Source: Candidula unifasciata (taxonomy: Eukaryota; Mollusca; Gastropoda; Stylommatophora; Geomitridae). Taken from it: DNA of 64,000 bases. The DNA is taken from positions 194,501-258,500 of the forward strand of contig CAJHNH020004891.1 in assembly GCA_905116865.2 (NCBI GenBank), read 5' to 3'. This document shows, piece by piece, positions 5,139 to 39,980 of this stretch (the first letter of the stretch is position 1; every line of letters begins with the position of its first letter). The notes below the pieces were generated by a model, which saw only the letters and a list, made by a program, of their open reading frames with translations, did not search any database and was not told the DNA's origin. The translations under genes and the position numbers were made by a program.

Positions 5139-5367
5139 TTAAAACGGCATTAAAGTCTGTGATAAAATATTATAATCACACATTAAACTCCTGGCTCCCA
5201 CATCTCTCCTGGCTGACTCGCTCAGCTCTCTTAGCGATGTCAAAATGGATACAAGTCGCGGGAAAATCTGGCGATTCCCCGGTTGCGTCTTTTCTGCGTG
5301 ACGTTGTAGGCAGGACACAACCATCCAGTGAATGTCGGAAACTTTTTCTGCTTCTGACAAAGGGCAT
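5139..5367 (-). CDS. Nuclear receptor exon 4: LBD helices 9-11 and stop
   Basis: One base completes the split Arg, then 75 codons and TAA. The acceptor TTTCTTTTTCCCACAG|A has a strong pyrimidine tract. The join to exon 3 reads APDR|CPLSEAEK. Helix 9 is VSDIHWMVVSCLQRHAEK, and helices 10-11 contain IFPRLVSILTSLRELSESAR, the typical dimerisation surface. After this come 24 residues ending NILSQTLMPF and the stop. Helix 12 should lie here, but no hydrophobic-hydrophobic-x-Glu-hydrophobic-hydrophobic AF-2 core is present. Either the AF-2 is lost or a further exon or alternative 3' end exists. A second AG 14 nt inside (exon start at 5353) is a possible but phase-incompatible acceptor. Confidence 0.92.
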
Positions 5368-5477
5368 CTGTGGGAAAAAGAAAGAAAATAAAATGAAGAA
5401 AGTTTTTTCAAATATACTCACCAAATTGAAAAAGCGATGCTTAGGTGAATAGAACAAAATATTTTCTAACAAATATT

Positions 5478-5690
5478 GTTAGTTGCGTATCCTTTGCAGA
5501 ACCAACTCCAGCATTTCTCGCTGCGATTTAACTAGACCATATTTACGTTCAGTAGTTTTCCACCGCTCCAGACGGTCGCCTCCGAATACCACTGTCGAAA
5601 CTACCGCAAGCTGATCTGTTGCTAAATCACCAGCTGTGGGGATCGAGCTTCGCACCTGGAAATCACGAAGCGCATTCAAAATGATAAAAC
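5478..5690 (-). repeat. SINE-like repeat, family A, diverged
   Basis: Inverted older copy with TTGCGTATCCTTTGCAGAAC at its 3' end and a recognisable but decayed middle. It lies in intron 3 of the receptor, about 110 bp upstream of exon 4. Confidence 0.65.
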
Positions 5691-5749
5691 CCCTGATCAA
5701 GATTGCATTCCAAGAACTCTTCTTTACGTTAGTGAAACTGAGGGCAGTT

Positions 5750-6300
5750 TGGTCTACAAGGAGAAACGGTTAAGCAGCTTCCAAATGATATGCCTCAAAA
5801 GAACACTAAGGTACGTATTAGGTGGCAAGGTCAGATCACACAGACGCTTGAGGTAGTGCAAAAGGATTATCACAACAGTATTTTCAATGTGTGGTCTTTG
5901 TAGGCACAGGTGGCTAGGGCGGATGAGAGATGGTAGCGTCCCTAAGGACATCCTCTTTAAGAATTACTGATGGGTTGGATATGTCAAGGACGGTCTCTAT
6001 TACGGTGTGAGTGCAAGTGGGCCATGGATGATGCAAGTTTTGAAGTGGATTCCTAGAAACTAAATGCCATAGACTGTATTACATGGAAAAGGGGGAATAA
6101 TCAGAAAGGGGAGACAAGAGAACATGACGGTGGACTGGTGCAGAGTTCAGTCTCCGAAAGAAGCACGCTAAAAGCATGTGATGGGAACAATGATCCTGCA
6201 ATCTCATAGTTCTATTGCGAAAGAAGTTTCTGAACGCCGGGCGGGTCTGCCCAGTCACACTCGCCGTCGCCACGGGCTGTGATTCTCGTGCTCCCATATA
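5750..6300 (+). pseudogene. LINE RT C-terminal tail
   Basis: IRWQGQITQTLEVVQK, then HRWLGRMRDGSVPKDILF, is the typical end of a non-LTR RT (thumb-like HRWLGHV block). The terminal Cys-containing stretch near 6200 is frame-shifted. It lies in intron 3 of the receptor, in opposite orientation. Confidence 0.7.
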
Positions 6301-7906: not shown

Positions 7907-8098
7907 CTGTCAGGAGCGACGATGCAGACAGCCTTGAGAAGAATCAACAGCTGCCTGGACAGGCTGTATCGTTTGATGATGCCCGCCATGATGAAAGCGA
8001 ACCGAGCGTAATGTCTGCCCCAGGCAGCCTCCATCTCATCGGCATGAACACAGGTGCCCCTGGGGGTCATAGCTACACCCAAAGTCTTGTTGTAGCCT
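7907..8098 (-). CDS. Nuclear receptor exon 3: LBD beta-turn to helix 8
   Basis: A 192-nt exon: one base completing Arg, 63 codons, then AG of another split Arg. It encodes a beta-turn region (TLGVAMTPRGTCVHADEM), helices 6-7 (ARFAFIMAGIIKRYSLS) and the helix 7-8 motif QLLILLKAVCIVAPDR. That motif matches the family pattern of hydrophobic LL, then A-hydrophobic, then PDR. The acceptor is CTCTGATAG|A, and its pyrimidine tract is a (CT)n microsatellite. The donor is CTGACAG|GTAGTT, directly followed by a GAT/ATC-rich microsatellite in the intron. Using the AG two bases further in would break the phase with exon 2. A long open frame runs on upstream through the microsatellites, but the Ser-Leu repeats there are intronic. 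Confidence 0.92.
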
Positions 8099-10012: not shown

Positions 10013-10094
10013 CTGAACGTTCCCAGCAGCCAGACCTCATCCCACGCAGATTTCAGTAAAGCTGATTGGTCCTGGAATGGCAGACTGGAAAACC
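10013..10094 (-). CDS. Nuclear receptor exon 2: LBD helices 3-5
   Basis: An 82-nt exon: two bases completing the split Gly of IPG, 26 codons, then AG of a split Arg. The acceptor is TTATTCCAG|GG and the donor TTCAG|GTAAGG, both good matches to consensus. It encodes FSSLPFQDQSALLKSAWDEV followed by WLLGTF. This is the helix 3-4-5 signature of nuclear receptor ligand-binding domains; the DQ pair and the LLK that follows are the most conserved part. The lysine of LLK usually belongs to the charge clamp that holds coactivator LXXLL helices. The entry phase (1) matches exon 1 and the exit phase (2) matches exon 3, which excludes a chance open frame. It lies 27.7 kb from exon 1 across repeat-filled DNA. 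Confidence 0.93.
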
Positions 10095-11479
10095 CTGGAA
10101 TAATTACCAAAAACGGATCTCAATATTAGAACAACTATACGTTTCTCTCCCCCCCCCCCCCCACGATATTGTCTGATATCTCCCATTGATGCATAGACCC
10201 TCAATCAACTTACGTCATTCACCCCCCCCCCCCCCCGCCCCAATCTTTTTTTTTTTTACAGCTCCCATCTTCGTTCTCTTCACATCGGCTGCAAGGCTTG
10301 ATCAATTCACACGTGTAAGCTGTTTAGACAAAATGAAGCGGTAGCAGGTAACGATTATATTGGAGAAGGTATCACGTGATATTTTCTTGGCTGTTATGAG
10401 TATGCGTACGCAGCTAGAATAGAAGTATTAGTAACTGGTAGCTGTCAGATGTTACAGTTTCAGCAAGAGTTGTTTAAGAATGCGGCGAGCATTCTTTTCG
10501 CTATGTTAACACTGTTAAAAAAAAAGCTTAACTTGCTCGGCGACACGTAAACCGAGTGGTGTATTGTAGTAAACAGTAAAAATAAGAACTCCACAAGGGG
10601 AGCGTGTACAACAGGAGTCTACCAATCATTAGTAGAAGATCTCTCGTCGAGAAAAGTTTCGGTCCATTACCTCCTAGACAACTTCAGAAGGTGGGCCGAC
10701 CTGGGTCATGACTCCCAGCCCTCGATCTTCTCCTGCTGCACTTCACCGGATGTCGGTTGTTCTCGGACAGGGACAAGACGAAAATTGTGACCATGCAACG
10801 GGTACTGTGAGATTCAAAGTTAGATAAATGTACTGTTGCTACGGTAGCCCATTAGATCAACCGGCTACCTTGACGACTAAGTGACAAGCTTACGGTTGGT
10901 TCATCGGACACATGTAAGACTTTTGCAATTGGCAGAGGGACACAGGCAGACATTTCGGACACACTGGCTTAATAAACACTAGAACTATGCATTTCCCACT
11001 TTCTCTGTTTGTGCTGGAAGAACCCCAAGCGAAACCCAAGGCCTGAAATTGCCTCGAAAATTACACCCATGCTCATCCAGAGTAGGAATTTTGGCACGAA
11101 AAGTACATTGCTGTTAAATCTGGTGAGAATGCAGCCAGACTCTACTGCATATGAGACTTTTTACAGCAGAGCATCTGGGAGGAAGCGACAGGAAGGCCAA
11201 GAAAGCGATAGATAAATGGTGTATCAGAAACCTTCACAAAGATGAACGAATCCATCAGTCAAGCAACCCGAGAAGCTCAAGACAATACAGAAGACCACGA
11301 CACTGGGCTACAACCTGGTTTCATTGAGACAACAACAGAAGAAGAAAAAGCAGAATAAAACCTTTGTTTGTTTGTCTTCGCTGGCTGTTAACTTATAAAT
11401 AAACAGAGGGGGAACCTTTGAGGCCGCTAAATATTATGAATTAATCAAGTAACAGAAAGTGTACTGATCGGTACTCATA

Positions 11480-11600
11480 GAAAGAAGTATGCAAGTTGGC
11501 ACCAAACCACTACAAAGCGACACCGGCTGCCTTTACCTTCTAGGAAATTTTGCTTTACCCATTTTACGGTGGGTCGACCTGGAAGCCGTAAACGTAAATT
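11480..11600 (-). repeat. SINE-like repeat, family B, fragment
   Basis: Inverted body fragment with ACCGGCTGCCTTTACCTTC and GGGTCGACCTGGAAGCC, just before the satellite array. Confidence 0.6.
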
Positions 11601-11649
11601 ATGAAAACTATCTCGAACACATGGCGTTTGTTCCGACAGAAAAGCGCTA

Positions 11650-14600
11650 AGCAACTGCCCCATCTGTAAGCTACTGCCCCCGTCTGTAAGCTACTGCCCC
11701 CATCTCTAAGCTATTACACCATCTCTAAGCTTCTGTCCCATCTCTAAGCTACTGCCCCCATCTCTAAGCTATTACACCATCTCTAAGCTTCTGTCCCATC
11801 TCTAAGCTACTGCCCCCATCTCTAAGCTACTGCCCCCATCTCTAAGCTATTACACCATCTCTAAGCTTCTGTCCCATCTCTAAGCTACTGCCCCCATCTC
11901 TAAGCTATTACACCATCTCTAAGCTTCTGTCCCATCTCTAAGCTACTGCCCCCATCTCTAAGCTATTACACCATCTCTAAGCTTCTGTCCCATCTCTAAG
12001 CTACTGCCCCATCTCTAAGCTACTGCCCCCATCTCTAAGCTACTGCCCCCATCTCTAAGCTACTGCCCCCTCTCTAAGCTACTGCCCCCATCTCTAAGCT
12101 ATTACACCATCTCTAAGCTACTGCCCCATCTCTAAGCTACTGCCCCCATCTCTAAGCTACTGCCCCCATCTCTAAGCTACTGCCCCCATCTCTAAGCTAC
12201 TGCCCCCATCTCTAAGCTACTGCCCCCATCTCTAAGCTACTGCCCCCATCTCTAAGCTACTGCCCCATCTCTAAGCTACTGCCCCCATCTCTAAGCTACT
12301 GCCCCCATCTCTAAGCTACTGCCCCCATCTCTAAGCTATTACACCATCTCTAAGCTACTGCCCCATCTCTAAGCTACTGCCCCCATCTCTAAGCTATTAC
12401 ACCATCTCTAAGCTACTGCCCCCATCTCTAAGCTACTGCCCCATCTCTAAGCTATTACACCATCTCTAAGCTACTGCCCCCATCTCTAAGCTACTGCCCC
12501 CATCTCTAAGCTACTGCCCCCATCTCTAAGCTACTGCCCCCATCTCTAAGCTACTGCCCCCATCTCTAAGCTACTGCCCCATCTCTAAGCTATTACACCA
12601 TCTCTAAGCTACTGCCCCCATCTCTAAGCTACTGCCCCCATCTCTAAAGCTACTGCCCCCATCTCTAAGCTACTGCCCCCATCTCTAAGCTACTGCCCCA
12701 TCTCTAAGCTATTACACCATCTCTAAGCTACTGCCCCCCATCTCTAAGCTACTGCCCCCATCTCTAAGCTACTGCCCCCATCTCTAAGCTACTGCCCCCA
12801 TCTCTAAGCTATTACACCATCTCTAAGCTACTGCACCCATCTCTAAGCTACTGCCCCCATCTCTAAGCTACTGCCCCCATCTCTAAGCTACTGCCCCATC
12901 TCTAAGCTACTGCCCCCATCTCTAAGCTACTGCCCCCATCTCTAAGCTACTGCCCCCATCTCTAAGCTACTGCCCCATCTCTAAGCTACTGCCCCCATCT
13001 CTAAGCTACTGCCCCCATCTCTAAGCTACTGCCCCCATCTCTAAGCTACTGCCCCCATCTCTAAGCTACTGCCCCCATCTCTAAGCTACTGCCCCCATCT
13101 CTAAGCTACTGCCCCCATCTCTAAGCTACTGCCCCCATCTCTAAGCTACTGCCCCCATCTCTAAGCTACTGCCCCCATCTCTAAGCTACTGCCCCCATCT
13201 CTAAGCTACTGCCCCATCTCTAAGCTACTGCCCCCATCTCTAAGCTACTGCCCCCATCTCTAAGCTACTGCCCCATCTCTAAGCTACTGCCCCCATCTCT
13301 AAGCTACTGCCCCCATCTCTAAGCTACTGCCCCATCTCTAAGCTACTGCCCCCATCTCTAAGCTACTGCCCCCATCTCTAAGCTACTGCCCCATCTCTAA
13401 GCTACTGCCCCTATCTCTAAGCTACTGCCCCCATCTCTAAGCTATTACACCATCTCTAAGCTACTGCCCCCATCTCTAAGCTACTGCCCCCATCTCTAAG
13501 CTACTGCCCCCATCTCTAAGCTATTACACCATCTCTAAGCTTCTGTCCCATCTCTAAGCTACTGCCCCATCTCTAAGCTACTGCCCCCATCTCTAAGCTA
13601 TTACACCATCTCTAAGCTTCTGTCCCATCTCTAAAGCTACTGCCCCCATCTCTAAGCTACTGCCCCCATCTCTAAGCTACTGCCCCCATCTCTAAGCTAC
13701 TGCCCCCATCTCTAAGCTACTGCCCCATCTCTAAGCTACTGCCCCCATCTCTAAGCTACTGCCCCCATCTCTAAGCTACTGCCCCCATCTCTAAGCTACT
13801 GCCCCATCTCTAAGCTACTGCCCCCATCTCTAAGCTACTGCCCCCATCTCTAAGCTACTGCCCCCATCTCTAAGCTACTGCCCCCATCTCTAAGCTACTG
13901 CCCCCATCTCTAAGCTACTGCCCCCATCTCTAAGCTATTACACCATCTCTAAGCTACTGCCCCCATCTCTAAGCTACTGCCCCCATCTGTAAGCTACTGC
14001 CCCCATCTGTAAGCTACTGCCCCCATCTCTAAGCTACTGCCCCCATCTCTAAGCTACTGCCCCCATCTCTAAGCTACTGCCCCCATCTCTAAGCTACTGC
14101 CCCCATCTCTAAGCTACTGCCCCATCTCTAAGCTACTGCCCCCATCTCTAAGCTACTGTCCCCATCTCTAAGCTACTGCCCCCATCTCTAAGCTACTGCC
14201 CCCATCTCTAAGCTATTACACCATCTCTAAGCTACTGCCCCTATCTCTAAGCTACTGCCCCCATCTCTAAGCTACTGTCCCCATCTCTAAGCTACTGCCC
14301 CATCTCTAAGCTACTGTCCCATCTCTAAGCTACTGTCCCATCTCTAAGCTACTGTCCCATCTCTAAGCTACTGTCCCATCTCTAAGCAACTGTCCCATCT
14401 CTAAGCTACTGTCCCATCTCTAAGCTACTGTCCCATCTCTAAGCTACTGTCCCATCTCTAAGCTACTGCCCCCATCTCTAAGCTACTGTCCCATCTCTAA
14501 GCTACTGCCCCATCTCTAAGCTATTACACCATCTCTAAGCTATTACACCATCTCTAAGCTACTGTCCCATCTCTAAGCTACTGTCCCATCTCTAAGCTAT

Positions 14601-17130
14601 TACACCATCTCTAAGCTACTGTCCCATCTCTAAGCTATTACACCATCTCTAAGCTACTGTCCCATCTCTAAGCTATTACACCATCTCTAAGCTACTGTCC
14701 CATCTCTAAGCTACTGTCCCATCTCTAAGCTACTGTCCCATCTCTAAGCTATTACACCATCTCTAAGCTACTGTCCCATCTCTAAGCTATTACACCATCT
14801 CTAAGCTACTGTCTCATCTCTAAGCTATTACACCATCTCTAAGCTACTGTCGCATCTCTAAGCTATTACACCATCTCTAAGCTACTGTCCCATCTCTAAG
14901 CTATTACACCATCTCTAAGCTACTGTCCCATCTCTAAGCTATTACACCATCTCTAAGCTACTGTCCCATCTCTAAGCTACTGTCCCATCTCTAAGCTATT
15001 ACACCATCTCTAAGCTATTACACCATCTCTAAGCTATTACACCATCTCTAAGCTATTGTCCCATCTCTAAGCTATTACACCATCTCTAAGCTATTGTCCC
15101 ATCTCTAAGCTATTACACCATCTCTAAGCTATTACACCATCTCTAAGCTATTACACCATCTCTAAGCTATTGTCCCATCTCTAAGCAACTGCCCTTATCT
15201 CTAAGCTATTACACCATCTCTAAGCTACTGTCCCCATCTCTAAGCTACTGTCCCCATCTGTTAGCTACTGCCCCCATCTCTAAGCTACTGTGTCCCATCT
15301 CTAAGCTACTGTCCCATCTGTAAGCTACTGTCCTATTTCTAAGCTACTGTCCCATCTCTAAGCTACTGTCCCATCTCTAAGCTACTGTCCCATCTCTAAG
15401 CTACTGTCCCATCTCTAAGCTACTGTCCCATCTCTAAGCTACTGTCCCATCTCTAAGCTACTGTCCCATCTCTAAGCTACTGTCCCATCTCTAAGCTACT
15501 GTCCCATCTCTAAGCTACTGTCCCATCTCTAAGCTACTGTCCCATCTCTAAGCTACTGTCCCATCTCTAAGCTACTGTCCCATCTCTAAGCTACTGTCCC
15601 ATCTCTAAGCTACTGTCCCATCTCTAAGCTACTGTCCCATCTCTAAGCTTCTGTCCCATCTCTAAGCTACTGCCCCATCTCTAAGCTACTGCCCCCATCT
15701 CTAAGCTACTGCCCCCATCTCTAAGCTATTACACCATCTCTAAGCTACTTCCCCCATCTCTAAGCTACTTCCCCCATCTCTAAGCTACTGCCCCCATCTC
15801 TAAGCTACTGCCCCCATCTCTAAGCTATTACACCATCTCTAAGCTACTTCCCCCATCTCTAAGCTACTATCCAATCTCTAAGCTACTGCCCCCCATCTCT
15901 AAGCTACTGCCCCCCATCTCTAAGCTACTTCCCCCATCTCTAAGCTACTTTCCCCATCTCTAAGCTACTTCCCCCATCTCTAAGCTACTGCCCCCATTTC
16001 TAAGCTATTACACCATCTCTAAGCTACTGCCCCCATCTCTAAGCTACTGTCCCCATCTCTAAGCTACTGCCCCCATCTCTAAGCTACTGTCCCCATCTCT
16101 AAGCTACTTTCCCCATCTCTAAGCTACTGTCCCCATCTCTAAGCTACTGCCCCCATCTCTAAGCTACTGCCCCCATCTCTAAGCTATTACACCATCTCTA
16201 AGCTACTGCCCCCATCTCTAAGCTACTGTCCCATCTCTAAGCTACTTCCCCCATCTCTAAGCTACTGCCCCCATTTCTAAGCTATTACACCATCTCTAAG
16301 CTACTGCCCCCATCTCTAAGCTACTGCCCCATCTCTAAGCTACTTTCCCCATCTCTAAGCTACTGCCCCCATCTCTAAGCTATTACACCATCTCTAAGCT
16401 ACTGCCCCCATCTCTAAGCTACTGTCCCATCTCTAAGCTACTTCCCCCATCTCTAAGCTACTGCCCCCATCTCTAAGCTACTGTCCCATCTCTAAGCTAC
16501 TGCCCCCATCTCTAAGCTACTGCCCCCATCTCTAAGCTACTGCCCCCATCTCTAAGCTACTGCCCCCATCTCTAAGCTACTGCCCCCATCTCTAAGCTAC
16601 TGCCCCCATCTCTAAGCTACTGCCCCCATCTCTAAGCTACTGCCCCCATCTCTAAGCTACTGCCCCCATCTCTAAGCTACTGCCCCCATCTCTAAGCTAC
16701 TGCCCCCATCTCTAAGCTACTGCCCCCCCATCTCTAAGCTACTGCCCCCATCTCTAAGCTACTGCCCCCATCTCTAAGCTACTGCCCCCCATCTCTAAGC
16801 TACTGCCCCCATCTCTAAGCTACTGCCCCCATCTCTAAGCTACTGCCCCCATCTCTAAGCTACTGCCCCCATCTCTAAGCTACTGCCCCCATCTCTAAGC
16901 TACTGTCCCATCTCTAAGCTACTGCCCCCATCTCTAAGCTACTGCCCCCATCTCTAAGCTACTGCCCCCATCTCTAAGCTACTGTCCCCATCTCTAAGCT
17001 ACTGCCCCCATCTCTAAGCTACTGCCCCCATCTCTAAGCTACTGTCCCATCTCTAAGCTACTGTCCCATCTCTAAGCTACTGCCCCCCATCTTTAAGCTA
17101 CCTCCCCCATCTCTAAGCTACTGCCCCATT
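11650..17130. repeat. Satellite array, 19-20-bp unit, about 280 copies
   Basis: The unit is ATCTCTAAGCTACTGCCCCC with variants in its second half: CTATTACACC, CTACTGTCCC, CTTCTGTCCC and CTACTTCCCC. The array is nearly uninterrupted for about 5.5 kb inside intron 1. Local arrangements differ. About 11700-12000 is dominated by a three-unit cycle (CTACTG, CTATTACACC, CTTCTG). About 14530-15180 tends to alternate CTATTACACC with CTACTGTCCC. About 15340-15650 is almost pure CTACTGTCCC. The first units (11650-11700) read ATCTG instead of ATCTC. Each unit holds an AGCT palindrome. No open frame of note spans it. Confidence 0.97.
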
Positions 17131-17304
17131 TTTTTCAACATCTTGAGGCGTGATGGGCAGACGGTACCAACACGATAAGTTTATAAACCAGTCCGTCAAA
17201 AACTGTCATCACTGCCTAGTACTTAGCACATCTACGATGTAAGTAGTGAAAGGGGAGGGGGTAAAAAAAAAAAGTGGTGGGGTGTTAGCCTCAGTATTTA
17301 GCGA

Positions 17305-17465
17305 AGCACGACTAGTGCAGTCGCCACGGACTGTGCAGGTTGTGATTTTATTTTCTGCCCCAAGAAAAAACCATAACGTTACGGAGGATTCGAGCCTGAA
17401 TCCCTTGTTTGAGAGCCGAGTGTTCTTCGCTGCTCAGGAGGCAGCGGTTCCAACGCTTTATGAAT
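17305..17465 (+). repeat. Interspersed repeat, family D
   Basis: GACTAGTGCAGTCGCCACGG, then GGTTGTGATTTTATTTTCTG and CATAACGTTACGGAGGATTC. A second copy lies at 18505-18620 and an older one at 315-520. Confidence 0.75.
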
Positions 17466-17489
17466 AATTTACTGGCTATCCGGTCGGGT

Positions 17490-17735: not shown

Positions 17736-17753
17736 TCCTTACATCCTTTAACA

Positions 17754-17908: not shown

Positions 17909-18079
17909 TTTTAACACATCCAGGTACCGATTTCACTGGTGATTCAACATTCACCCCCGTGTGCGTTCTGTAGCCTCATTGTGGAGAAGAGGGAAAGGGG
18001 GGAGGAGGGGGGGGTGGACCCACTGTCCCCCAACAAGCAGTTCGTAAAAGTAGACTAATTAGTTTTTTCGAGGTCAAAG

Positions 18080-26430: not shown

Positions 26431-26454
26431 TGAATCAGGTAATCGCAGTTCTAC

Positions 26455-26560: not shown

Positions 26561-28619
26561 CATATCTAATATTAAAAGCACACATTAAAAGCATAATGCA
26601 GCCGAAAGAAGTGCTAATGCAAACATTTCCACGCCAGAAATACAGTTAATCAACGATGAAGGCAGCAGTTGCAACAGATCACTAGTTGCACACATGTACA
26701 AATAATCTTAAATATGCCAGTAGTTGGTTGTTTCGTTCATTTTATTACTTGTTGGACCTGTCGTAGGATCATCATTATTTGAACACACTGATGTTTGAAA
26801 ACACACAAAAACGCACATTTTCGTCCCACAGAATGTTAACCGACTTTTGTTTACTCCGCCATCTTGTTATTGGGAATTGGGGTCTAAAACACTGACCTTT
26901 TCGTCTTTTCAGATAATAATGTTATAGAGTAATACAGAGAGGCATGGGACTCACAGCCAGTTAAAGCCAGGTATAAAATAGAGCACAAAGCGGTAGGCAT
27001 TATTGTAAAGGCCAGGTGTTGCCCATGCAGCATGATCCCTTGTTCGACCTGCCTTGTTTACTCAAAAGGAGAGTGGCACCAATACGTTTGGAACAAAGCT
27101 CGCTGTAGAAGTGCCGAATGAAAAGAGTAGTGTTTTGTCTGCTTACCAGTGGGAGTTTCCGTCGTAGACCAATCGCCAAGCAAGGCTATGGATCCGGTTG
27201 CCCTGCCATAATTGTCTTCAGATTGCAATTCCTTGAAAACTTAAGTAGTGTTAATTTTCTTCCCTATTCACTTTTCCGTTCGGAAGTCGCTTGCACAATG
27301 TGCAATGACAGGTTTGATTACGACGCCCAACATTATGTGATAACAGGGACAATACTACCGACTACTGCCATGCGGAAGTTCATACATGTTCGTCTAAAAT
27401 GACAACAAAGAAAACTCACTGTAACAGTATATTTTCTTACACAGACACAAAGAACTAGTATTTTTAATATTAGAAAATCAAAACAATATTCTTTATCTTC
27501 CCAACTCTGGGAAACAAAGTGACAGGGGGGTTACACTACATATCAGAGTCACCAGGAAGTCAAACTCATAAGAAAAAAATGCAGTCCAATCAAAAGGCTT
27601 ACAAAAACTCGCTGGGAAAAACAACAACAACCTGGATGGAACATACTGGGGAGCCAGTACAAAAACATGAGTGCTAGTCTACACTGGAGCAGGTAAACCT
27701 TTTATGCAACACGCCTCGATCTCATTGGCCGCCAAAACTTATTTGTGAAGCCTAAACGAGGTTCAAAATAAGAGCTTACGAATATCACACTGACCAATGA
27801 GAAGTGCCCTGTAGACAGCACTAATTTTTTACTTAGTTGAAAAGTTTAAGAGACTTCGAAACCACCCGCTGAACCATAGATTTCAAGAAAAAGAAAAAAA
27901 AAAACGATTAAGAAGAAGTATATATCATTTTACAAGAGAAACTTTGACACAACATGCAAATGTAAAACTGACATAATGATGTGCAAAGCACTGACACAAA
28001 AACTATGGATTAACAGTCTATTATTATCTAGTGTAGTTCTGGAAGTCCCAGGAATAATCTTTAAGAAGAGCAGAGTCGGAACAAGAACTTTTTCATTTTA
28101 TATACTTAAAAATCAATACCCCTCCAATATTTGAACACGTACGTTGGCAGAGGATTTGGGAAAGAAGCCACAAACAGGAGGCGGGCTAATCTTCATTATA
28201 CACACTAATTGCAAGACGGAGATATATTCAATATCGGCTTGGAGATTTGAGCTAACTTCAGAGCAGAGGCATCAACCTCCTTTGATCTAAAAAGACTACA
28301 AATACTCGTTCAACTAAATAGTAAGCTTTCATATTCACATACGTAAAATCAGTCCTACAAGCAATCTCACGCTCTTAGCAAGACAGCATCAAAATGATGT
28401 GCACAAGAACAGAACTAGTCAAGCAGTGAAAATCAACCTACAGTTAATCCCTAGAAATGGACAGGCAGAGCTTACGAAGGCTATAGAAAACTTTATGCAG
28501 CTAATCTATCCCAGAACTTTGAAACGCCAAAGACACTCTATGAAGTTGAACTGGAGAGAAGACTACCAAAATTACAGACAGATCATGTTGTAAGTCGGGG
28601 GGGGGGGGGGAAGACGATA

Positions 28620-28775
28620 CAAAACAAAACTGCCAGTATATCATCATCATCATCATCATCATCATCAGCATCTCCATCAGCATCACTATCATCATCATCA
28701 TCAGCATCTTCTTCTTCATCATCATCATCCCCAGTACCAGGTCCTCCGCAAAACGTCGCTCGCATCACTGACCAT
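28620..28775 (-). pseudogene. Extreme 3' end of a LINE with GAT-repeat tail
   Basis: On the minus strand VMRATFCGGPGT matches the terminal residues of the copy at 50784-51038. It is followed at once by about 100 bp of (GAT/GAC)n at 28640-28735, the expanded 3' tail of the element. Confidence 0.7.
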
Positions 28776-28819
28776 CCAAAAAAAAATTGGGGTTCTCGTC
28801 AGCTTTCGAGCGTAGCAAA

Positions 28820-29250
28820 TTTTCCTACTGTCGACTTTTATATCATGTACCCATGAGCAGCCGGATGTACCAGTCACAAACCACCAAAAGAAAAGAATCA
28901 TTAAATCGATCAGGAAACCACCAGCCCCAGCACAAGACGACTATTTTATCATGGACAGACCAAAACAAGTAATTATCCTCCGCCTCAGAACAGGGCACAA
29001 CCGATTACGTAACCACGTGTACACAAAATTCAAGATAGGTGTATCAGCCATGAGCCCTAGACAGCAGAGCATGCACTCCACGACTGCACCGAATTTGACA
29101 CATTAAGGCAAACCTTTTGGCCAGAAAGAACAACAGTGGAACGTAAACTATGGACCAATGAATGAATTAACAACAACAGTGAAATTTATACAAGAGACAA
29201 AACTGCTGATATAGACAACTCATTTCAGGCGAACGAAAGAAGAAGAATGT
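28820..29250 (+). pseudogene. LINE C-terminal tail related to the copy at 8810
   Basis: VIILRLRTGHNRLRNHVYTK and a decayed Cys/His tail (HALHDCTEFDT) match the same region of the element at 9000-9390. It also ends in a GAA-rich tail (GCGAACGAAAGAAGAAG near 29230). Frames are broken. Confidence 0.7.
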
Positions 29251-29449
29251 ACCCATCTTCGTGCTGGTCGGCCCCTGCCCCTATTTCCTGATATCATGCC
29301 CTGCGATACTATTCTTTCCAAATCACCGTTTGATATGCCCAACATATTTTAGTTTCCGTGACAAGATGCTGTTTATTTGCCAATCATGTTCAGATATTTC
29401 CGCATTTTAATATTTTTTTACTTCTTTGCTTTTTTTTTTTTTAAATTTA

Positions 29450-29612
29450 CCTCGGGGACTCCGAGATTTCGTGGAGAGTTCCCTGGGAAAGTCCAATAGT
29501 GTAGGGATGTTAGGGTGTGAATTCAACACCGTCTAACACTAACCCTAGCCCCTACCCTTTCTACCCCGGCCACTATTGGACTTTCCACGGGAACTCCCGT
29601 GATCCATGGTAT
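29450..29612. repeat. Fold-back element with GGACTTTCC-type arms
   Basis: The arm GGGAAAGTCCAATAGTG (29485-29501) is inverted as CACTATTGGACTTTCC (29570-29585), with weaker pairing further out (GGGGACTCCGAG and CGGGAACTCCCGTG). A diverged relative lies at 61676-61815. Confidence 0.7.
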
Positions 29613-29719
29613 TGTGGGACTCTTTTGATAGCATTCCAACCCAAAAGCGTCTATTTTCTTGCCTATGCAACCCCTGATAGGAATAAACATGTAAAATATA
29701 TAACACTAACATTTATAGG

Positions 29720-29960
29720 TAGACAATAAATCAAATGGTTTGGCCATGTAACAAGATTGGCAGCAGACATGGCACTACAGAGAGCAATCTTATACAGATA
29801 CAGTGGTAACAGAGCCAGAGATCGACCACGCAGAAATGGACCGCAATAAAATCAGAGTCACTGGAAAGTATTATATACGAAGCGAAAAGAAGGGCTCGTT
29901 CTAGAGGCGAGGCGTCCAGGAGCAGAGAAAAGAAGAAGAGGAAGAAGAACACGCGTCCCT
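29720..29960 (+). pseudogene. LINE RT tail
   Basis: IKWFGHVTRLAADMALQRAI and RARDRPRRNGPQ, then an AGAAGAAGAGG tail. Frames are broken. Confidence 0.65.
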
Positions 29961-30364
29961 TATCCTTGTCGAATGCCTTGCCCCGAGCATTTAGTATAAA
30001 TGTCAATACTTATATCTAAAAAACATGTATAGATGTATCGAGTGCTGTAGTTTCGTGTCGATCTCCTTCCTTGAGAAAACTGCGTAATTTTGTATGAATC
30101 AGTCAGCATATCAAGCCGGTCGATTTGACCTGGCAAGCAGGGAGAGTTTCGTGTCAGGTCACCCCAACCTGCAAGTTCACAAACTGGGTACACAGGAGTT
30201 CTTTCACCATGGTGTGTCATCAAAGGCGGCGCTAAAAAGGTCACTGCGTGGGTGGGATAGATGTTGCAAACATGGCTCAATGCATCGATAGCGTTACTAG
30301 ACAGCCGGAGAAGACAGACAACTTGGACTAAACAGGCGACTGGAAAGTCATTTTTGGACCAGTT

Positions 30365-31225
30365 AAACGGCGCTAGGAGGTCATTCTCAGGCTAGACCAG
30401 CAGACTTGCATGCAACTCTGGGACTAGACAATCGTCAAGCATGTGGTTCTGGGACTAGACAGTCGACTAGCAGATGTTCTAGGGCTAGACAACTAACTAG
30501 CATGTGGTTATAGGGCTAAACAGGCGACTACCATGTGGTTCTGGGACTAGACAGTCGATTAGCATGTGGTTCTGGGACTAGACAGTCGATTAGCATGTAG
30601 TTCTAGGGCTAGACAACTATCAAGCATGTGGTTCTAGGGCTAGACAAATAACTAGCATGTGGTTCTAGGGCTAGACAACTATCAAGCATGTGGTTCTAGG
30701 GCTAGACAACTAACTAGCATGTGGTTCTAGGGCTAGACAACTAACTAGCATGTGGTTCTAGGGCTAGACAACTAACTAGCATGTGGTTCTAGGGCTAGAG
30801 AACTAACTAGCATGTGGTTCTAGGGCTAGAAAACCAACTAGCATGTGGTTCTAGGGCTAGACAACTAACTAGCACGTGGTTCTAGGGCTAGACAACTAAC
30901 TAGCATTTGGTTCTAGGGATAGACAACTAACGAGCATGTGGTTCTAGGACTAGGCAGGTGACTAGCATGTGGTTCTGGGACTAGACAATCAACTAACACG
31001 TGACTTTGAGAATAGACAGGTGACTAGCATGTAATTAAGGGACTAGACAACCGACCAGCATGTAGATCTGAGACTAGACTTCTCATTAGGATGTAAATAT
31101 GGGACTAAACAACCAGTTAGCTGACAGTTCTCGTACTTTACAATCGGTTACTTCGTGATTCTTGGAATAGACAGTGTATAGTCAGTACTTTTGGGACTAG
31201 ACAAATGGTTAGCACGTAATTTGGA
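30365..31225. repeat. Minisatellite, 31-bp unit, about 27 copies
   Basis: Unit around GTGGTTCTAGGGCTAGACAA then CTAACTAGCAT. The central copies (30600-30930) are almost identical; the edges are decayed. Confidence 0.94.
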
Positions 31226-31528
31226 CCGGGCAACCGACTTTTCACAAAAGTAAACTGTGTTTTGTTGCCTTTTCTCGTTCACTAAGCATATCCTTGTAAT
31301 TTAGCCTTGAAATAATATAACTTATGTGTTTGCTACTATATATAATGTAAATATTATTTTCTATTTCCTTTATTATAATTTAATTACTTGCATAAACAAC
31401 GCCTATTTAAAGTTCGTCCATCAGACATTAGACACCCGGGGCCTGAGTGGGGGGCCCAATCAGTTTCTGCCCCTCATTATGGGACACACATACACACACA
31501 CAAAAACACGACAGAAAACTAACCACCT

Positions 31529-31840
31529 GTGAGATGTTTGAAAATGGCTGTGAATAAAAACAGAAGAGATCGAGTGAGAAACGACATGATCATAAGAAAT
31601 GTTGTGACGCATCGTCAAATTTATTGCGAAACAAAGAATGGAATGGTTTGGTCATCTAATGAGGATGAAACCAACGATGCCAGGGACAAGAGCGTACAAC
31701 CTGAAAATCGACACATCAAGGGGCAGGGAAAGAGCGAGAAGAAATGGACTGAAGAAGTCACTGACACCTTGAGACTGCATAACACCACGGCATATCAAGC
31801 GACTGAGCGCGCCCTGGCTCGGCTGCCGATTGTCTGATGA
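31529..31840 (+). pseudogene. LINE RT tail
   Basis: A shifted frame gives RIEWFGHLMRMKPTMPGTRA, with a SRGRERARRNGLKKS block and a terminal AYQATERALARLPIV. Gene-like length, but only the RT C-terminus. Confidence 0.65.
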
Positions 31841-32574
31841 CAATGTAGGGGATTATAACCACTGAGCCACCGAAACTTTTAAAACGTCTGGGACCCCTCC
31901 ATATACAATGTTTAGTCACGCCTACGTCACAAGAACGTAGCAAACGTCATTCAATATGGCGCACGGCCATGAAGTGATAACCGTGTCCGGATATACATCA
32001 CCCACCGCGCGAATGTCACCCGTGGCTGAAACATTCGCCCCCTTGTTACTTGTCACTCAAGAAGCCGAGATTCTCAAAGTTTCCCAGGCTGACCCAGTGT
32101 AAAATTGGGTACCAGGAAATTTAAGTAGGTAAAGTAAAGGTCACTTTCCACGTCTTCGGGCGTTCTGGCAATACAGGACTATATCTATATTTTATAGACC
32201 AATGGGCACTTGTATGAACTTCTGCCTTGGATACTCCCCAAGTAATAAGTCAAGATCTGTTATACATAAGACGGGACAAGGCAGTCTAATTCCTCTTTAG
32301 TCGATCCAACTGGGGCCACTAAAGATGTCTTGCTATGTAAAGCAAAAACACAGAAGCAAATTCATATAATTACAGATATAAGTACCTAGAGCCTGAGTGT
32401 TATGTGCGTTCTTAGAGGGTAACGCATCCAGCCAAGCACCCAGGGTGTATGACTTGCTCCAGTCACATACAAGAGCTCCCTCAGACGACAAAACGATTGT
32501 CTGGTTCCTACAGAACAGCAAGGAGAGGCAAACGAAAACAATAGCACCACTATAAGCCAGTCACAGTAACGAAC

Positions 32575-32645
32575 GAACAAACGAACAAACTTTATTTTCA
32601 AAGGGTTACAAATTGGGCATGCAGGCCCGTCTGACATTCGGTCCT
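32575..32645 (-). mobile_element. LINE/SINE 3' end with GTTC-repeat tail
   Basis: The minus strand reads TTGAAAATAAAGTTTGTTCG followed by further GTTC units. This is a typical non-LTR 3' terminus with a tetranucleotide tail rather than poly(A). Confidence 0.5.
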
Positions 32646-32879
32646 TCTAAGCACTCATTTTTCAGAGTACCAATGCCTGTTATCAATAATGCATGTTTTG
32701 GATATAATAAAGAAGTATGCATTATAGAATAGCAAGTTACCATGTCCTATCGTAACCACTAACAACACACACGCGGTGATTGTAACTGGCTCATAGAGCA
32801 TGTTAAGAAAGGCGAAAACAGGCATGCTTCGTGCATAGTGGCAAGTATCACTTCAGAGATGCCGGGTAGTTAGCATCGT

Positions 32880-33250
32880 TTGGAAATTTTCTTCAGGGTA
32901 TGTTGGTGTTTTGGGAAATGAGCAGATAGATAGACTGGCTGGCTCTGCACCACTTGGTGGTGAATTGATGCATGGCAAGTTAGATGTTGTGAGGATCCTT
33001 TGGGAGCGAGTGGACAGTGCGAAGGCACAGATAGATCCTTACGGTTTAAGGAGAATGGCGCTGCGAGAAGTTACCAGGGGATGTGACGCACGACTCTCAG
33101 GGGAAGGATGAGACGGATATACAATCAGACGGTTACCGGTACCATCGGAATTGGAACTCTTCGCTTGCTACTGAAGATGGGAACTGAGCACTTATGGTAG
33201 TGTCCCGAAGTGCTGTGATGTCGATTCCTAATTTAACATTCGTAACTATT
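32880..33250 (+). pseudogene. LINE RNase H C-terminal fragment
   Basis: VGVLGNEQIDRLAGSAPLGG is the end of an RNase H domain (PGHxGVxGNExADRLA type). A linker and two stops follow. It is a decayed copy related to those at 41890-42370 and 33955-34200. Confidence 0.75.
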
Positions 33251-33394
33251 AACATTGTCTACGAATACTTTGATATACTGCACCACACCAATTATGATCT
33301 TATAGTGCCATCAGTCTCTTTATTATAAGTCAACACATTGTGACGAAGATGAACTGGAAAAATCCACTCACATCGGCAGTCTTTCCAAACATGG

Positions 33395-33740
33395 ACAATA
33401 CACGACCGGCTTCAGCTAATGTGCCGTGCTGCTGACGTCACCGGCTCGGGCTAACGATGCATTAACACAGCGGTTCTCAAACTAGAAATAAACTATTTTC
33501 GACAGTGGTGAGGGAAGACATCTTAAATTTCAACTTTTAAGTATCCACATGCCTTCTTTAATAATTTCAAAATTTTGAGCCGACTTTTCTTGATTACTGC
33601 CGCGGCACTCTTGGCATACGCTCATGGCACATCAGGGTGCCTCGCACCCAGTTTGAGAACCGCTGCGTTAACGCATCGTTAGCCCGACCCGATGACGTCA
33701 GCAGCACGACCCGTCAGCTGGAGCCGGTCGTGGACAATAC
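33395..33740. repeat. Long inverted repeat (fold-back element) split by a MITE
   Basis: The left arm (about 33395-33467) and right arm (about 33666-33740) are inverted copies of about 75 bp with few mismatches. Both contain CGGGCTAACGATGC and a TGCTGCTGACGTCA block. Without the 198-bp insert the arms would meet at GTTAAC, making a nearly perfect palindrome of about 150 bp, itself probably a fold-back MITE. Confidence 0.85.
33468..33665. mobile_element. hAT-type MITE (198 bp) nested in a larger palindrome
   Basis: CAGCGGTTCTCAAACT at the left and AGTTTGAGAACCGCTG at the right are a perfect 16-bp inverted pair. The flanks CATTAACA and CGTTAACG form a diverged 8-bp duplication. It sits in the centre of an older inverted repeat (33395-33740). 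Confidence 0.88.
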
Positions 33741-33954
33741 ACCTCCAGCGAACTATGTACAAGGTGGCAGTAAAGGGGAACTCCCGTTCGATCGCACAGA
33801 TACACCTAAGTAATGACAGTCCCCCACCGGATCCCCCACTAAGCGACCCCGCCACCCGAGGACTCAAAGAAGATGCACTGCTTGGTAAAAAGAATCCAGA
33901 CCTCCCGCCTACATCCTAGTCACTCACTGAAATTAGTAAGTTAGTTAGTTAGTC

Positions 33955-34200
33955 GACAGATTATCCTCACTGCACGTCGAACCACTCAGCCCATAAGTGC
34001 TCAGATCCCCTCCTCAGTAAATCCTGCAGCGTGTAGCGGCTAACGACACCAGTTCTGTGTTGGTTTATTCTTCTTCTTTGACTACCCACGTAGTGTTCTT
34101 GTTTGTAGGAAGTATCTGAAGTATCACTGATCAACATTCCGTTAACCAGCCTCCCCGATATATCCCCATTACAACTCCACGTTGGCCTGAATTGCATTTG
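33955..34200 (-). pseudogene. LINE tail fragment after RNase H
   Basis: RRINQHRTGVVSRYTLQDLL and a terminal SEHLWAEWFDVQ stretch match the equivalent part of the element at 41890-42370. The same TTAGTTAGTTAGT-type 3' end is present in both. Confidence 0.65.
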
Positions 34201-34769
34201 TAACCACGTTATCTCGCATAATATATAAAGTTTCTATGCCCAACTTTTTATTTTCCTACTATTTATGATATATATAACCTATGGCCATATACGATGTAGT
34301 CCATTCATTAAAATGCCCCAGGCTGCAGATGTTTGTATCTTTTGTTTTTGTTCTTGCATTGCATTCTCTGGCGGCATCATTTATGAATTTATTGTATGGT
34401 CTGCTTTTAAGCAGATTTGACTACTTTTGTTTAGGGTACATTATCATGGTATTTATTCTTTAATGCATGCCCTATTTCTAGACTTTTAACTGCAAGACAA
34501 TATTTTCCCGTCTAGTTTGTGTCTCCTCCTCTTCCTTCTCCTTCCCCTTCTTCTTCTTAAGAAAATTAAAAACAGGTATAAGTATCTCACATTGTCTCAA
34601 TTATTCCCATACAAATGATCTAGAATCCTTAGTGATAGAGTGTGTCTGGCTGGAAGTCAAGCCGTCAAACAACTTTTTATTGTTTACCAATAAAAAATCC
34701 TTGCGCAGTTAACAATCGGTGTGACGACTTCACTTCTATATGGGATGAGTTTTTAGCATAGGAAAATTA

Positions 34770-35875
34770 TTCTTCTTCTAGGAGATTTCAACAAACCAAA
34801 TCAAACCAGACATGGGACGATATCATCCTATCCTAAAACTTTAAACAAATAATTAACCTTCCCACGAGAGTGACAGAAACCTCTTTAGCTATACCCGATC
34901 ACATTTATGTATCTTTCCCAACAAATGTTATTGAATGTACTGTAACCTCTAGTGCACTCAGCGACCACTATCCTGTCTGCATTACCTGATCAGAGAGGGG
35001 ATTTAGAGCTCCTAAAAGTAAGCATTTGGCTATTAAAAATTGTGAAGTTTTAAAAATTATCATCCGGATTTAATTGAACACAACCTGCAAAAAGTAGGGC
35101 TGGATCATGTTTATCAACTTCCTGAACCTGACGACGCTATAGCCTATTGGACTAAAACATTCTACAATGTTTTTGATAAACATGTACCAGTTAAACAAGT
35201 TGGAGTCAGTGGATAACTAGTGCAGTTCTAGAAACTATGAGAGAACAAGATGTGGCACATAAAAATTAAAATTTTACTGCCTATCTCAAATTAGGAAATA
35301 AAGTGAAATGGGAAGTTCGTAAAATAGAGAAAGATCACTTCAAAAGATTCACTAAAGATAAAACAAACAGTGACGACAGATGGAAGGCTATTAACATGCT
35401 AACCAACACGAAATATTCTTAAGATCAGGCAATACCTTATTCTCTAACACGTGAAGAGTTAATTCCTTTTTCAAATCAGAAATTAGGAATTCAAAGTCCC
35501 CAATACCAGACTCACAGTGTGACTTAAGCTTGCTAGCATCATTCTGTGAGGAAAAATGCAGCACGACTATACCTTCTGAGATTTCCCTTTGATCTGTTGC
35601 GAAAGTGTATAAATATTTCTCCAACCTCAAGAAAACACCTATGGCATAGATGGAATCAGTAATCGAATTCTTCGATGTGCTGCCCAAGTCATTAGTGACT
35701 CCTTATCATTCATTTATAATTAATGCTTTGCTAAGAACTACTTTCGATCAGCATTTAAAATTGCTAGAGTTTATCATCTGCCGAAACCTGGCTCAGCTAA
35801 CAACAGTTCTTTTGGTAATTACAGACCCCTTTCTCTACTGTCCTCGCTATCCAAACCATTAGAGAAACAAGGTTA
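34770..35875 (+). pseudogene. Non-LTR retrotransposon fragment: endonuclease to start of RT
   Basis: LLLGDFN near 34780, an IPDHIYVS block, and SALSDHYPV near 34960 are endonuclease (APE-type) signatures. After a connector with several stops, YHLPKPGS and FGNYRPLSLLSSLSKPLEK near 35780-35865 mark the beginning of the reverse transcriptase. The element stops at an insertion of a SINE-like repeat at about 35870. Stops and frameshifts are frequent, so it is inactive. Open frames on the opposite strand here are shadows. Confidence 0.85.
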
Positions 35876-36102
35876 GTTGCGTATCCCTTACAGGACGTTG
35901 CAGAACCAACCTCAACAGCCCTGGCTGTTGTGTGGTTTTTTTAAGCAAATTTACGTCCAGTAGTTTGCCATTGCTTACTGGACGGTCGGCTTTCTTGATA
36001 CCACTGTCGAAGTCAACGCAAGGCGCATGGCCCACAGCTGGGATCGAACCCAGCATTACGAAGCGTTCGCATCGACTTAGCCACAGAGCCGACATTAGGG
36101 AA
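35872..36102 (-). repeat. SINE-like repeat, family A
   Basis: Inverted full copy inserted into the RT fragment of the LINE at 34770-35870; it reads TTAGCCACAGAGCCGAC at the complement of the head. Confidence 0.82.
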
Positions 36103-36164
36103 ACATACATGAAATAACGTTTCAACACTTAAATAACAACAATCTAATACAGATCTGGCTCATT

Positions 36165-36325
36165 TTTAAACAGACTGTTGGTACCTTGCCTCTCAGGCAA
36201 ATGCACGTCAACTTTGAAGAAAACTCGATAATTAGTAGACTTTTACGACATACTTGTTAGGAAGGTAGTGGTTCTTTTCTTGCCACCTCCCAAAATAGGA
36301 TCCCGGAACCCACACGGCGATAAGT
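36165..36325 (-). repeat. Interspersed repeat, family E, fragment
   Basis: GCCTCTCAGGCAAATGCACG and TAATTAGTAGACTTTTACG; only the 5' half remains. Confidence 0.65.
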
Positions 36326-36544
36326 TTGTTTCAACAGTAGCGGACTCTATAATTTTTGATACAAATTTATTTTGCTTAAACTTTTAATTGCTTTTAATGT
36401 GTATCAAAATATGTGTTTTTTATAGTCAACCAACAAAGGAAGACAAATACAACTCAGGACTTAAAGATGGTGTTTTAAACGAGAATGCCTAATATTCTCA
36501 TACCCGTTGAGTAATATCTGTGCTACATTAAGTTTTAGTCGTAG

Positions 36545-36740
36545 ACGAGGTCTCCACTTCACTAACGATGGGTCGCCCCATAGCTGCCCCTTTCCTGCGG
36601 CAGTAAACATCACATGAAATGTCCCATTTGGAAACTAGTGAGCAAACACTCAGTCCTGGCTAAATGCAGAAACATGCACCTGCCGTTAATGCATAGGGCG
36701 CTGTTAGAGATGCCAACACCAACACTGCAATTTGTCGCTG
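36545..36740 (+). repeat. Interspersed repeat, family H
   Basis: GATGGGTCGCCCCATAGCTG and CCTGCGGCAGTAAACATCAC, then a body that partly matches 26560-26640. Confidence 0.55.
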
Positions 36741-37039
36741 ATAGAAGTAAATTGTTTGTGTAAGTAGAGTTAAGTAATATGTTACATAAAACAACTCATG
36801 AAGGGTTTGTGCAGATTTTAAACACAATGATTATCATTAACATCAACAGTTTCATCGTCGTCGTCACTATCATCTTATACATATCCTTTAGTTATCTTTG
36901 TAGCAAACGCAATGTGTGCGCCGACAATATTCAGTTTCGTGATTCAATCTGTTCTCAAAACATTCTACCTCTTTGGTTAGTACACACGTGACACATATTT
37001 GATAATAAATTTGGAAATGTTTGGGGTGTATAATGTTAG

Positions 37040-37800
37040 ATAATTAACATAGAAGGAGATGTTTGACTTAGTCAGTAACACAACAAAAACAGACTCCCGT
37101 AAAATACACCGTAAACACAGACGGAGATGTTTGGCGTAGTCAGTTAACACAAGACAGACAAACGTGCAGTATACAGTTAACCAACCTGAGATGTTTGACG
37201 CAGTCAGCTAACATAAGAAAGACATACGTACAGTATACAGTTAACCAGACTGAGATGTCTGACGAAGTCAGTTAATATAAGCCAGATAAACGTACAGTAC
37301 ACAGTTAACCAGACTGAGATGTGTGACGTAGTCAGTTAACACAAGACAGACAAACGTACAGTATACAGTTAACCAGACGGATGTGTTTGACATAGTCAGT
37401 TAACATAAGAAAGACATACGTACAGTATAAAGTTAACCAGACTGAGATGTCTGACGAAGTCAGTTAACATAAGAATGATATACGTACAGTACACAGTTAA
37501 CCAGACTGAGATGTGTGACGTAGTCAGTTAACAGATAAAATACAAACGTACAGTATACAGTTAACCAACCTGAGATGTTTGACGTAGTCGGTTAACACAA
37601 GTCAGATAAACGTACAGTACACAGTTAACCAGACTGAGATGTGTGACGTAGTCAGTTAACAGAAAAAATAAAAACGTACAGTATACAGTTAACCAACCTG
37701 AGATGTTTGACGTAGTCGATTAAGACAAGACAGACATGCGTAAAGTACACAGTTAACCAGACGGAGAAGTCTGTTAAAACAACAACACAGACACTCGTAA
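37040..37800. repeat. Minisatellite, 64-bp unit, about 12 copies
   Basis: Units contain GAGATGTTTGACGTAGTCAG, TTAACACAAGACAGACAAAC and GTACAGTATACAGTTAACCA. Copy starts at 37188, 37252 and 37316 fix the 64-bp period. The array ends about 15 bp inside intron 1 from the exon 1 donor. Confidence 0.93.
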
Positions 37801-37813
37801 AACACAAGCCTAC

Positions 37814-39980
37814 CTGGTATTTCTTTCGCAAATTCGACGTATCCTTGTATCCACGTCGTAGCCCTCTGGACGATCTCAGCTTCTGATTCACCACGTACAC
37901 TCAAGGAAGAACTCCACCTTCCCACACGAGACCAGCCGCAAGCGTTTGTTCCATTATTCACAGGAGGACTTGGTTTTGCAGCGGCTGCGTGTTTACGTAT
38001 ATTGTCATGAGGATCATCACAGTCTTTGTCACCAAAGCTCCAATCGAAACATCCACTTCCAGGTTTATCTCCCTGAGTACTACGGTTGTTCAAAGTTGCA
38101 TCAGACGAGGTATTTGAGTCTTCTGCCGAAGAGTTAGAATCGTGCGTAGGCACTATCTTTCTAAAAGAAACGTCTTGGGAAATTACATCCTTACGTTTTC
38201 CACATTGCTTACAGTTTACAGAATAAGTGTAGCTTCTGACTGATGAAGTACTGTCTGCATTGTTAAATGTATTATCATGCAGGAACTTCTCAGTGTCCTG
38301 AGAGGTTTGCATTATATTTAGGTCAGTGATTTTCCTCTTGACTTGTCCTTGAAAGCTGGCAGGGTAGTTTGTCTGACTGTTCTCACAACGACAGAAATCG
38401 TCTGCTCTCTGAATGTCCTTTTCTGAAAACTGTTTTCCTAAATGATTTCTATCAACAGAAGGGAAATAGTCTCTGCACAGACTACAGCAGCTGTAGCAAC
38501 TGAGCGCACACATTTGTCCATTTCGTGAAAGTTGCTCCGACGTTTTCACTGCGGCGACATTATATTGTTTATCAACCTCAACACAAACGGTTTCTGTCTT
38601 CTGCTCTTTGGTGTGGCTTTTTGAATGATCTATACATTTTGAGACATCTTCTTGTTTAGCAAAGTCTACACTATTGGAGGTGGCACTGGTGTATCTATTG
38701 GTTACCGCTTCATCAACAAATCCTGAGTCAGAAGACAACTGGGACCACGACCCTGAAGGTGAAGGCTGCTGTCCAGATTTGTCACTATTATTTTGGCAGT
38801 CTTTGTTCTCGGATGTTTTCGATGAACTGTCATGGCCAAACGATGGACCCACTTTTTCAGGGATTAGTTCAGGATGATTCCCAAATCTTTTATATAGAAG
38901 ATAAATATTATGATACTCCAGTTGTTTTTGATAGATCCAGTCACTTGGGGCATCGGTATGTGAAACCATCAGAGACTCATGAGCGGTTAGAATACTTTTA
39001 GTTACAATGTCTAAATCTAGTTCTCCCGAGGTGGGATTTGGCCATTTTTGAAGTCTTTTCACCTCCAGCGTGTCCCGGGTTCGCTTTTTGTAAGAGTAAC
39101 GACCCGTTTTAATGGATTCTCGGGCCATTCCCAGACTTAAACATTTTTTATAGCGGCAAAATCTACATGTGCTTCTTTTATTTCCTTTCACGTCACATTT
39201 TTTACTTTTCGGGCATTTGAACACAACTGGCCGTTTTAAAGCTCGCCGGAAAAATCCTTTACAAGCTTCGCAAGTGTTGACTCCATAATGAAGCCCAGAT
39301 GCTCTGGCTCCACAGATTCGACATGGTGGCAACACAGCGGCTGGTGAATGTTTCGATTTGTTTAAAAAAGTCTTGGGGTTGTTTCTGAAGCTGATACTGT
39401 TGTCCTTTTTGCGGATTTGATTGTGGGTGTTGTTGTTAGTGTCAAAGCAGTTCTTTCTTTCTTTGAAACTGACTGCAGAAAAATTCGCTGAAGTCAAAAC
39501 ACTTATTTGACTTTTCTTTGAATTTTCTAGGTCATCAGCATTCTGTGTAAAAGCTTGTTTAGCGCCCTCCATCTCGTTATGATTTTCGATGGTTGAAATT
39601 GCATTATAGCGTTCTAAACAATTGCCAGGTATGTTTAGCCTTTGTCGATCTTCTTGATCGCTGTGGTTGTCAAAACCATTGTTACATTCGTTACTGAGTT
39701 TATCGTTCACGTTTTCTTCATTAACTTTGTCACTTATTGCGTTGGTAAATGTATAATTACACTGCCCGCATTTGTACATCATAGATTTATAGTTTCCACC
39801 CAACTCGGAACAGCTTCTCATTGTACCACGGGTAGGTATGTCTTTATCTACATTAGTGCGGGTGTATTTATGTATACTTGTAGGGGAAGCAGAAGGCCAA
39901 ACTGGCTCCTGTGTTGTCAGAATGATGGCGTAAGTGGCTAGGATATGGCGCCATAAATGGCTGTCACTGAAATTAGACAT
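37814..39980 (-). CDS. Nuclear receptor exon 1: A/B domain, DNA-binding domain, LBD helices 1-3
   Basis: This 2.17-kb exon codes for 722 residues plus the first base of a Gly codon. The ATG at 39980 is the first after an in-frame TAA at 40017-40019. Its context is weak (T at -3); a Met at residue 54 (39821) has A at -3 and could be the real start. Residues 1-219 are a polar A/B region with a CxxC pair (C71, C74). Residues 220-294 are the DNA-binding domain: finger 1 uses C220, C223, C237 and C240, finger 2 uses C256, C262, C272 and C275, and the P-box reads CEACKG. A basic extension (GMARESIKTGRYSYKKR) follows. Residues about 322-365 resemble LBD helix 1 (IVTKSILTAHESL). A Ser/Asn/Cys-rich stretch of about 315 residues then separates it from helix 3 (about 701-722), which ends VEFAKEIPG. 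The exon closes at CAG|GTAGGC, phase 1. Confidence 0.95.
39099..39323 (-). other. Nuclear receptor DNA-binding domain (two C4 zinc fingers) with C-terminal extension
   Basis: The sequence shows all eight zinc-binding cysteines with normal spacing, the HYGVNTCEACKGFFRR core of finger 1, and the RFCRYKKCLSLGM end of finger 2. The P-box, which selects the response element, is C-E-A-C-K-G; most NR1 receptors have C-E-G-C-K-G. The five-residue D-box between the first two cysteines of finger 2 is PKSKK. The domain lies wholly inside one exon, although many animal receptors have an intron inside or next to it. The following Lys/Arg-rich stretch can serve as nuclear localisation signal and minor-groove contact. 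Confidence 0.97.

Follow-up and report, generated by a model that had tools for sequence, protein, structure and literature searches.

Among described nuclear receptors, the vitamin D receptor (VDR) also carries a disordered, length-variable insertion between helices 1 and 3 (H1 and H3) of its ligand-binding domain (LBD), located at residues 165–218 in the human receptor (hVDR) (PMC3042382). The mollusc oestrogen receptor has lost ligand control and is constitutively active, its pocket being filled and its active state stabilised; the abstract mentions no large insertion (PMC3886901). In Crassostrea gigas, NR1P has been described as a group of molluscan NR1 receptors distinct from NR1C-F (Vogeler 2014; PMC4070562). 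Here, we describe a nuclear receptor gene of the land snail Candidula unifasciata, encoded on the minus strand of a 64,000-nucleotide stretch of contig CAJHNH020004891.1 (positions 194,501 to 258,500; hereafter the window, in whose own numbering all coordinates are given). Its H1–H3 insertion has 325 residues, and the activation function 2 (AF-2) position has lost the acidic residue, a loss that is not reported for VDR in the consulted part of PMC3042382. Taken together, this is very probably a functional gene of a lophotrochozoan NR1 receptor, probably NR1P, with an intact DNA-binding domain (DBD), an altered LBD and a presumably weakened AF-2 switch, which would mostly serve as a constitutive regulator or repressor.

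Domains and the altered ligand-binding domain

The 889-residue product has the two-finger C4 DBD and the hormone-receptor LBD fold that define the nuclear receptor superfamily. The zf-C4 domain (PF00105), with the P-box CEACKG, lies within one exon (39120..39326, minus strand) and covers residues 219–287 (profile positions 2–70 of 70, E 2.7e-25). Hormone_recep matches residues 709–867 (Pfam, E 4.2e-11). An earlier sequence-only reading of this DNA had taken the joined product for a nuclear receptor, and both profiles bear this out. Comparison with the PDB returned 436 distinct sequences at E ≤ 0.001, the best being RAR-gamma, to which the DBD and LBD align as two stretches. The single zf-C4 stretch sets the protein apart from the 2DBD-NR receptors with their two DBDs, and the presence of both domains from the NR0 receptors, which lack one or the other. 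The gene is a single-DBD, single-LBD transcription factor gene.

The H1 of the LBD and the next helix (residues 320–365; 38886..39023, minus strand) were located in the AlphaFold model of the corresponding database protein (P0001) and align with H1 of PPAR and RAR. In P0001 these helices span residues 267–284 and 293–312, with block values of the predicted local distance difference test (pLDDT) of 79–96, except one block of 58–59 at the edges. The insertion that follows (residues 370–694; 37899..38873, minus strand) is Ser-rich, has CxxC motifs in common with Bradybaena and is predicted to be disordered, with pLDDT mostly <50 over P0001 residues 317–641. The H1–H3 spacing is 227–365 residues in the pulmonate orthologues, compared to the usual 59. 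For the Candidula gene, a long hinge was rejected as an explanation of the segment, because the model places the preceding helix within the LBD. Among 74 aligned proteins (rows), a long DBD-to-H1 hinge (>150) was found in 12, each of which retains E at AF-2; hinge length and H1–H3 length are therefore different traits.

Between Candidula and Bradybaena, the insertion shares 42% identity (134 of 321 columns, with 10 gap columns), compared to 92% for the DBD and 80% for H3–H10. It shares 136 of 318 positions with P0003 and 16% identity with Physella. These values point to a retained yet fast-evolving segment. The cysteine motifs CSLC and NCKxCG are present in the insertions of Candidula, Bradybaena and P0003 and absent from those of Physella, P0008 and Lymnaea, and might possibly form a small metal-binding element. 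No LxxLL or corepressor-box motif was found in the insertion by simple pattern search. The predicted disorder and fast divergence would also suit an annotation artefact, in which part of the insertion is an unrecognised intron read through in all pulmonate models. This explanation is very unlikely, given that the insertion stays open over 325 codons in the Candidula genome, aligns with so few gaps to Bradybaena and can also be aligned to P0003. Moreover, eight rows of the pulmonate clade, drawn from separate assemblies or contigs, show the expanded segment, and the genome paper, in the portion seen, lists genome-wide mapped RNA-seq among the annotation evidence (PMC8496239).

The AF-2 position (residues 881–886, ILSQTL; 5151..5168, minus strand) carries Q884, at a site that is E or D in most relatives. 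Of six pulmonate orthologues, five have Q or N in place of the AF-2 glutamate and the sixth, Lymnaea, has D; this residue rules out loss of the acid in all pulmonates. Spacing and AF-2 were compared in 151 rows, 13 with a long segment and 138 others. The count leaves out 27 rows (P0054, P0057–P0082), which are lower-ranked matches of the first homologue search, mostly from other NR1 groups, P0058 having a CEACK box; the truncated and misaligned P0017, whose spacing of 60 is not trusted, is counted among the 138. Of the long rows, 11 have a residue in the AF-2 column, and ten of these are non-acidic (Q in three, N in two, S in four, A in one; D in Lymnaea), compared to 3/134 of the other rows with a residue, 131 of which have E or D. 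The pulmonate orthologues also lack the motif G-[IVLM]-D-x-D-x-R before H3. In the wider form G-[IVLM]-[DE]-x-[DN]-x-[RK], searched within 45 residues before H3, the motif is present in 120/138 other rows, compared to none of the 13 long rows. A bivalve receptor clade shows an H1–H3 expansion of independent origin, with S or A at AF-2. Two Sinanodonta rows related to this clade (P0137 and P0149; support 97) lack the motif, have a spacing of 51 or near and carry E in the AF-2 tail, which hints that the motif was lost first and that the insertion and the loss of the acid came later.

Several observations weigh against a weakened switch. The H3 clamp partner is basic (K or R) in 13/13 long rows, so that only one half of the charge clamp differs, and at AF-2 a change to Q or N is mild. 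Lymnaea stagnalis (P0178) combines a long segment with the acidic D. Helix 12 (H12) is modelled with low confidence (block pLDDT 49 and 47). In the part of PMC3042382 consulted, deleting the disordered VDR insertion has little effect on activation, and swapping it likewise has little effect. The long segment and the AF-2 change have arisen independently only twice. Co-occurrence of the two traits was also assessed on a tree of 71 rows from which the insertion and AF-2 columns had been left out and in which the long segment requires two changes and the non-acidic AF-2 six (cross table 10, 1, 3, 57); it is not significant (p 0.5), and the test cannot reach significance because there are only two independent pairs. 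The kept basic residue, the Lymnaea D, the hVDR experiments and an LBD core conserved at 80% with Bradybaena would all fit a normal ligand-regulated receptor, in which the long segment is a passive loop and the Q/N AF-2 still binds coactivator. Such a receptor is conceivable but somewhat improbable here, since nearly all long rows are non-acidic at AF-2 and every one of them lacks the pre-H3 motif.

Gene structure, database record and repeats

The gene consists of four exons of 2167, 82, 192 and 229 nt (39980–37814, 10094–10013, 8098–7907 and 5367–5139, minus strand), each supported by the structure check and by tblastn of relatives. Exon 1 (37814..39980) encodes the N-terminal region, the whole DBD, H1 of the LBD, the long insertion and most of H3. 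Exon 2 (10013..10094) encodes the LBD signature and H3–H5, exon 3 (7907..8098) the middle of the LBD, and exon 4 (5139..5367) its end with the TAA stop at 5141–5139, up to which the joined frame is open. The three introns (27,719, 1,914 and 2,539 nt) are all GT...AG, starting from a phase 1 GT donor at the exon 1 end, 37814, and splice phases 1, 2 and 2 agree at the joins. These joins, phases and intron sizes agree with those of the sequence-only reading, and its LBD signature rebuilt across the 27.7-kb intron 1 (10095..37813) is upheld by the joined frame, the Hormone_recep match and tblastn. In the portion of the genome paper at hand, the median gene of C. unifasciata is 11,931 bp and the median intron 2,025 bp (PMC8496239), so the receptor gene and this intron are long.

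Phase agreement is weak as proof, because 5,692 open AG...GT segments of 60–250 nt occur across the gene span. Such abundance could also suggest that the four exons are a pseudogene or that splice-like sites merely happened to fit together. This explanation has next to no probability and was ruled out by the homology of all four exons, the lack of any stop or frameshift, the identity with an annotated protein and the concentration of conservation in the DBD and LBD. A first homologue search yielded 82 proteins at E ≤ 0.001. When nine database proteins were compared with the window by tblastn, a search independent of the earlier gene model, matches at E ≤ 0.05 were confined to the four exon segments, all of which were matched by six of the nine queries; the reversed window gave no match with the same nine proteins. 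The Bradybaena protein shares 51, 79, 83 and 74% identity with exons 1–4.

A Candidula unifasciata unnamed protein product of 836 residues (P0001) is identical, letter for letter by string comparison, to residues 54–889. The exon chain is therefore already in the public annotation, which drew on homology, transcripts and mapped RNA-seq according to the text available (PMC8496239), and the gene is not hidden as had been supposed. It had also been called complete, which is not supported at the 5′ end. P0001 begins at M54 (39819..39821, minus strand), where the ATG at 39821 has A at position –3, compared to T, a poor context, at the proposed ATG at 39980. Residues 1–53 are missing from both P0001 and the Bradybaena similaris protein BsWGS_16732 (P0002; 61% identity over the searched region), and the proposed start at 39980 is doubtful. 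Neither record names a nuclear receptor or the LBD architecture. The predicted truncation after exon 1 is not seen in P0001, which has the full chain, but was encountered in three of the 82 matches (P0003, P0008 and P0017, from short 'lgn' contigs), whose alignment is lost just past the exon 1 end, after I/L-P-G. A contig that continues into an intron would produce this pattern, which also points to a shared intron position. In Lymnaea, the model P0178 matches the LBD family only, with no zf-C4. Overall, the gene model is correct and of a known kind, an ordinary receptor already in databases; the oddest part, the large LBD insertion with the changed AF-2, was overlooked by the sequence-only reading.

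Several repeats lie in and around the gene. Intron 1 contains at least 7.7 kb of tandem arrays, including a 20-bp satellite of ~280 copies (11647–17127, 5.5 kb) and a 64-bp minisatellite of 11 copies (37056–37767), which starts 46 nt past the exon 1 donor. It also contains an open reading frame (ORF) of 265 codons (22440–23237, minus strand), a putative retrotransposon remnant with an RVT_1 match (E 6.2e-6) of 26.5 bits, below the 29.6 cut-off. CT and TA microsatellites occupy 8104–8399 and are directly followed by the exon 3 acceptor, so variation in repeat length could affect exon 3 splicing. Elsewhere in the window, a (GAA) triplet run of ~109 copies was found at 45168–45494. A 345-codon ORF (52903–53940, plus strand) is created by a 45-bp tandem repeat of ~38 copies (52918–54604); its Med31 match is probably spurious, as no single stretch passes alone.

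Placement within NR1

A profile search returned 573 proteins at E ≤ 1e-10. The best 120 of these come from taxa including molluscs, annelids, nemerteans and a brachiopod. Most have the P-box CEACKG and are labelled, for instance, vitamin D3 receptor-like, retinoic acid receptor-like or NR1D-like. In a 74-row tree from a quick search, with support from the SH-like approximate likelihood ratio test (SH-aLRT) only, the window protein groups with Bradybaena (100), then with Physella, Biomphalaria pfeifferi and Bulinus in a clade of five rows (100), nested in 17 gastropod rows that include Pomacea, Babylonia and Nucella (99). At least six named pulmonates have an orthologue. The group itself, with 64 rows including oyster P0086 and P0133, is separated from 10 PPAR, E75, E78, HR3, NR1D and RAR rows (100), similar to the separation described for C. 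gigas NR1P.

Within NR1, the gene thus falls into a group of lophotrochozoan receptors of CEACKG type, in which the window protein clusters with members from oyster, mussel and further lophotrochozoans. This CEACKG group is probably the published NR1P, the clade of CgNR1P1-11 and MgNR1G. Compared to the pulmonates, its bivalve members mostly have a spacing of 59 and an acidic AF-2. Four Biomphalaria receptors, BgNRU1-4, were left unclassified in the portion consulted of Kaur et al. (2015; PMC4388693), and the window receptor could correspond to one of them.

Proposed regulation and significance

Most likely, the protein is a receptor that sits on DNA and whose ligand-dependent activation switch is weakened or altered. 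The intact, typical DBD would bind NR1-type half sites in a sequence-specific manner, as is established for the superfamily. The LBD fold would be kept with a weakened AF-2 charge clamp, and ligand-dependent recruitment of coactivators may be weaker or taken over by other surfaces, possibly the disordered insertion. The receptor would then be regulated by a corepressor, a dimer partner or the disordered segment, and would for the most part regulate or repress constitutively instead of working as a classical hormone switch. The mollusc oestrogen receptor, likewise a molluscan receptor without ligand control, is a supporting precedent.

A broader scenario is put forward tentatively. NR1P-like receptors of pulmonates and some heterodont bivalves may have separately gained a disordered H1–H3 insertion of tens to hundreds of residues and lost the pre-H3 motif and the AF-2 acid, so that the hormone switch was repeatedly dismantled and regulation moved to the disordered segment. 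The LBD architecture appears to be undescribed in the open-access literature searched. The names vitamin D3 receptor-like, retinoic acid receptor-like and serine/threonine-protein kinase, the last being the database label of the Biomphalaria pfeifferi orthologue, are uninformative on ligands, a warning on automatic naming. Should a large disordered H1–H3 insertion and the loss of the AF-2 acid prove to accompany each other in independent lineages, molluscs would provide a natural test of insertions replacing ligand control.
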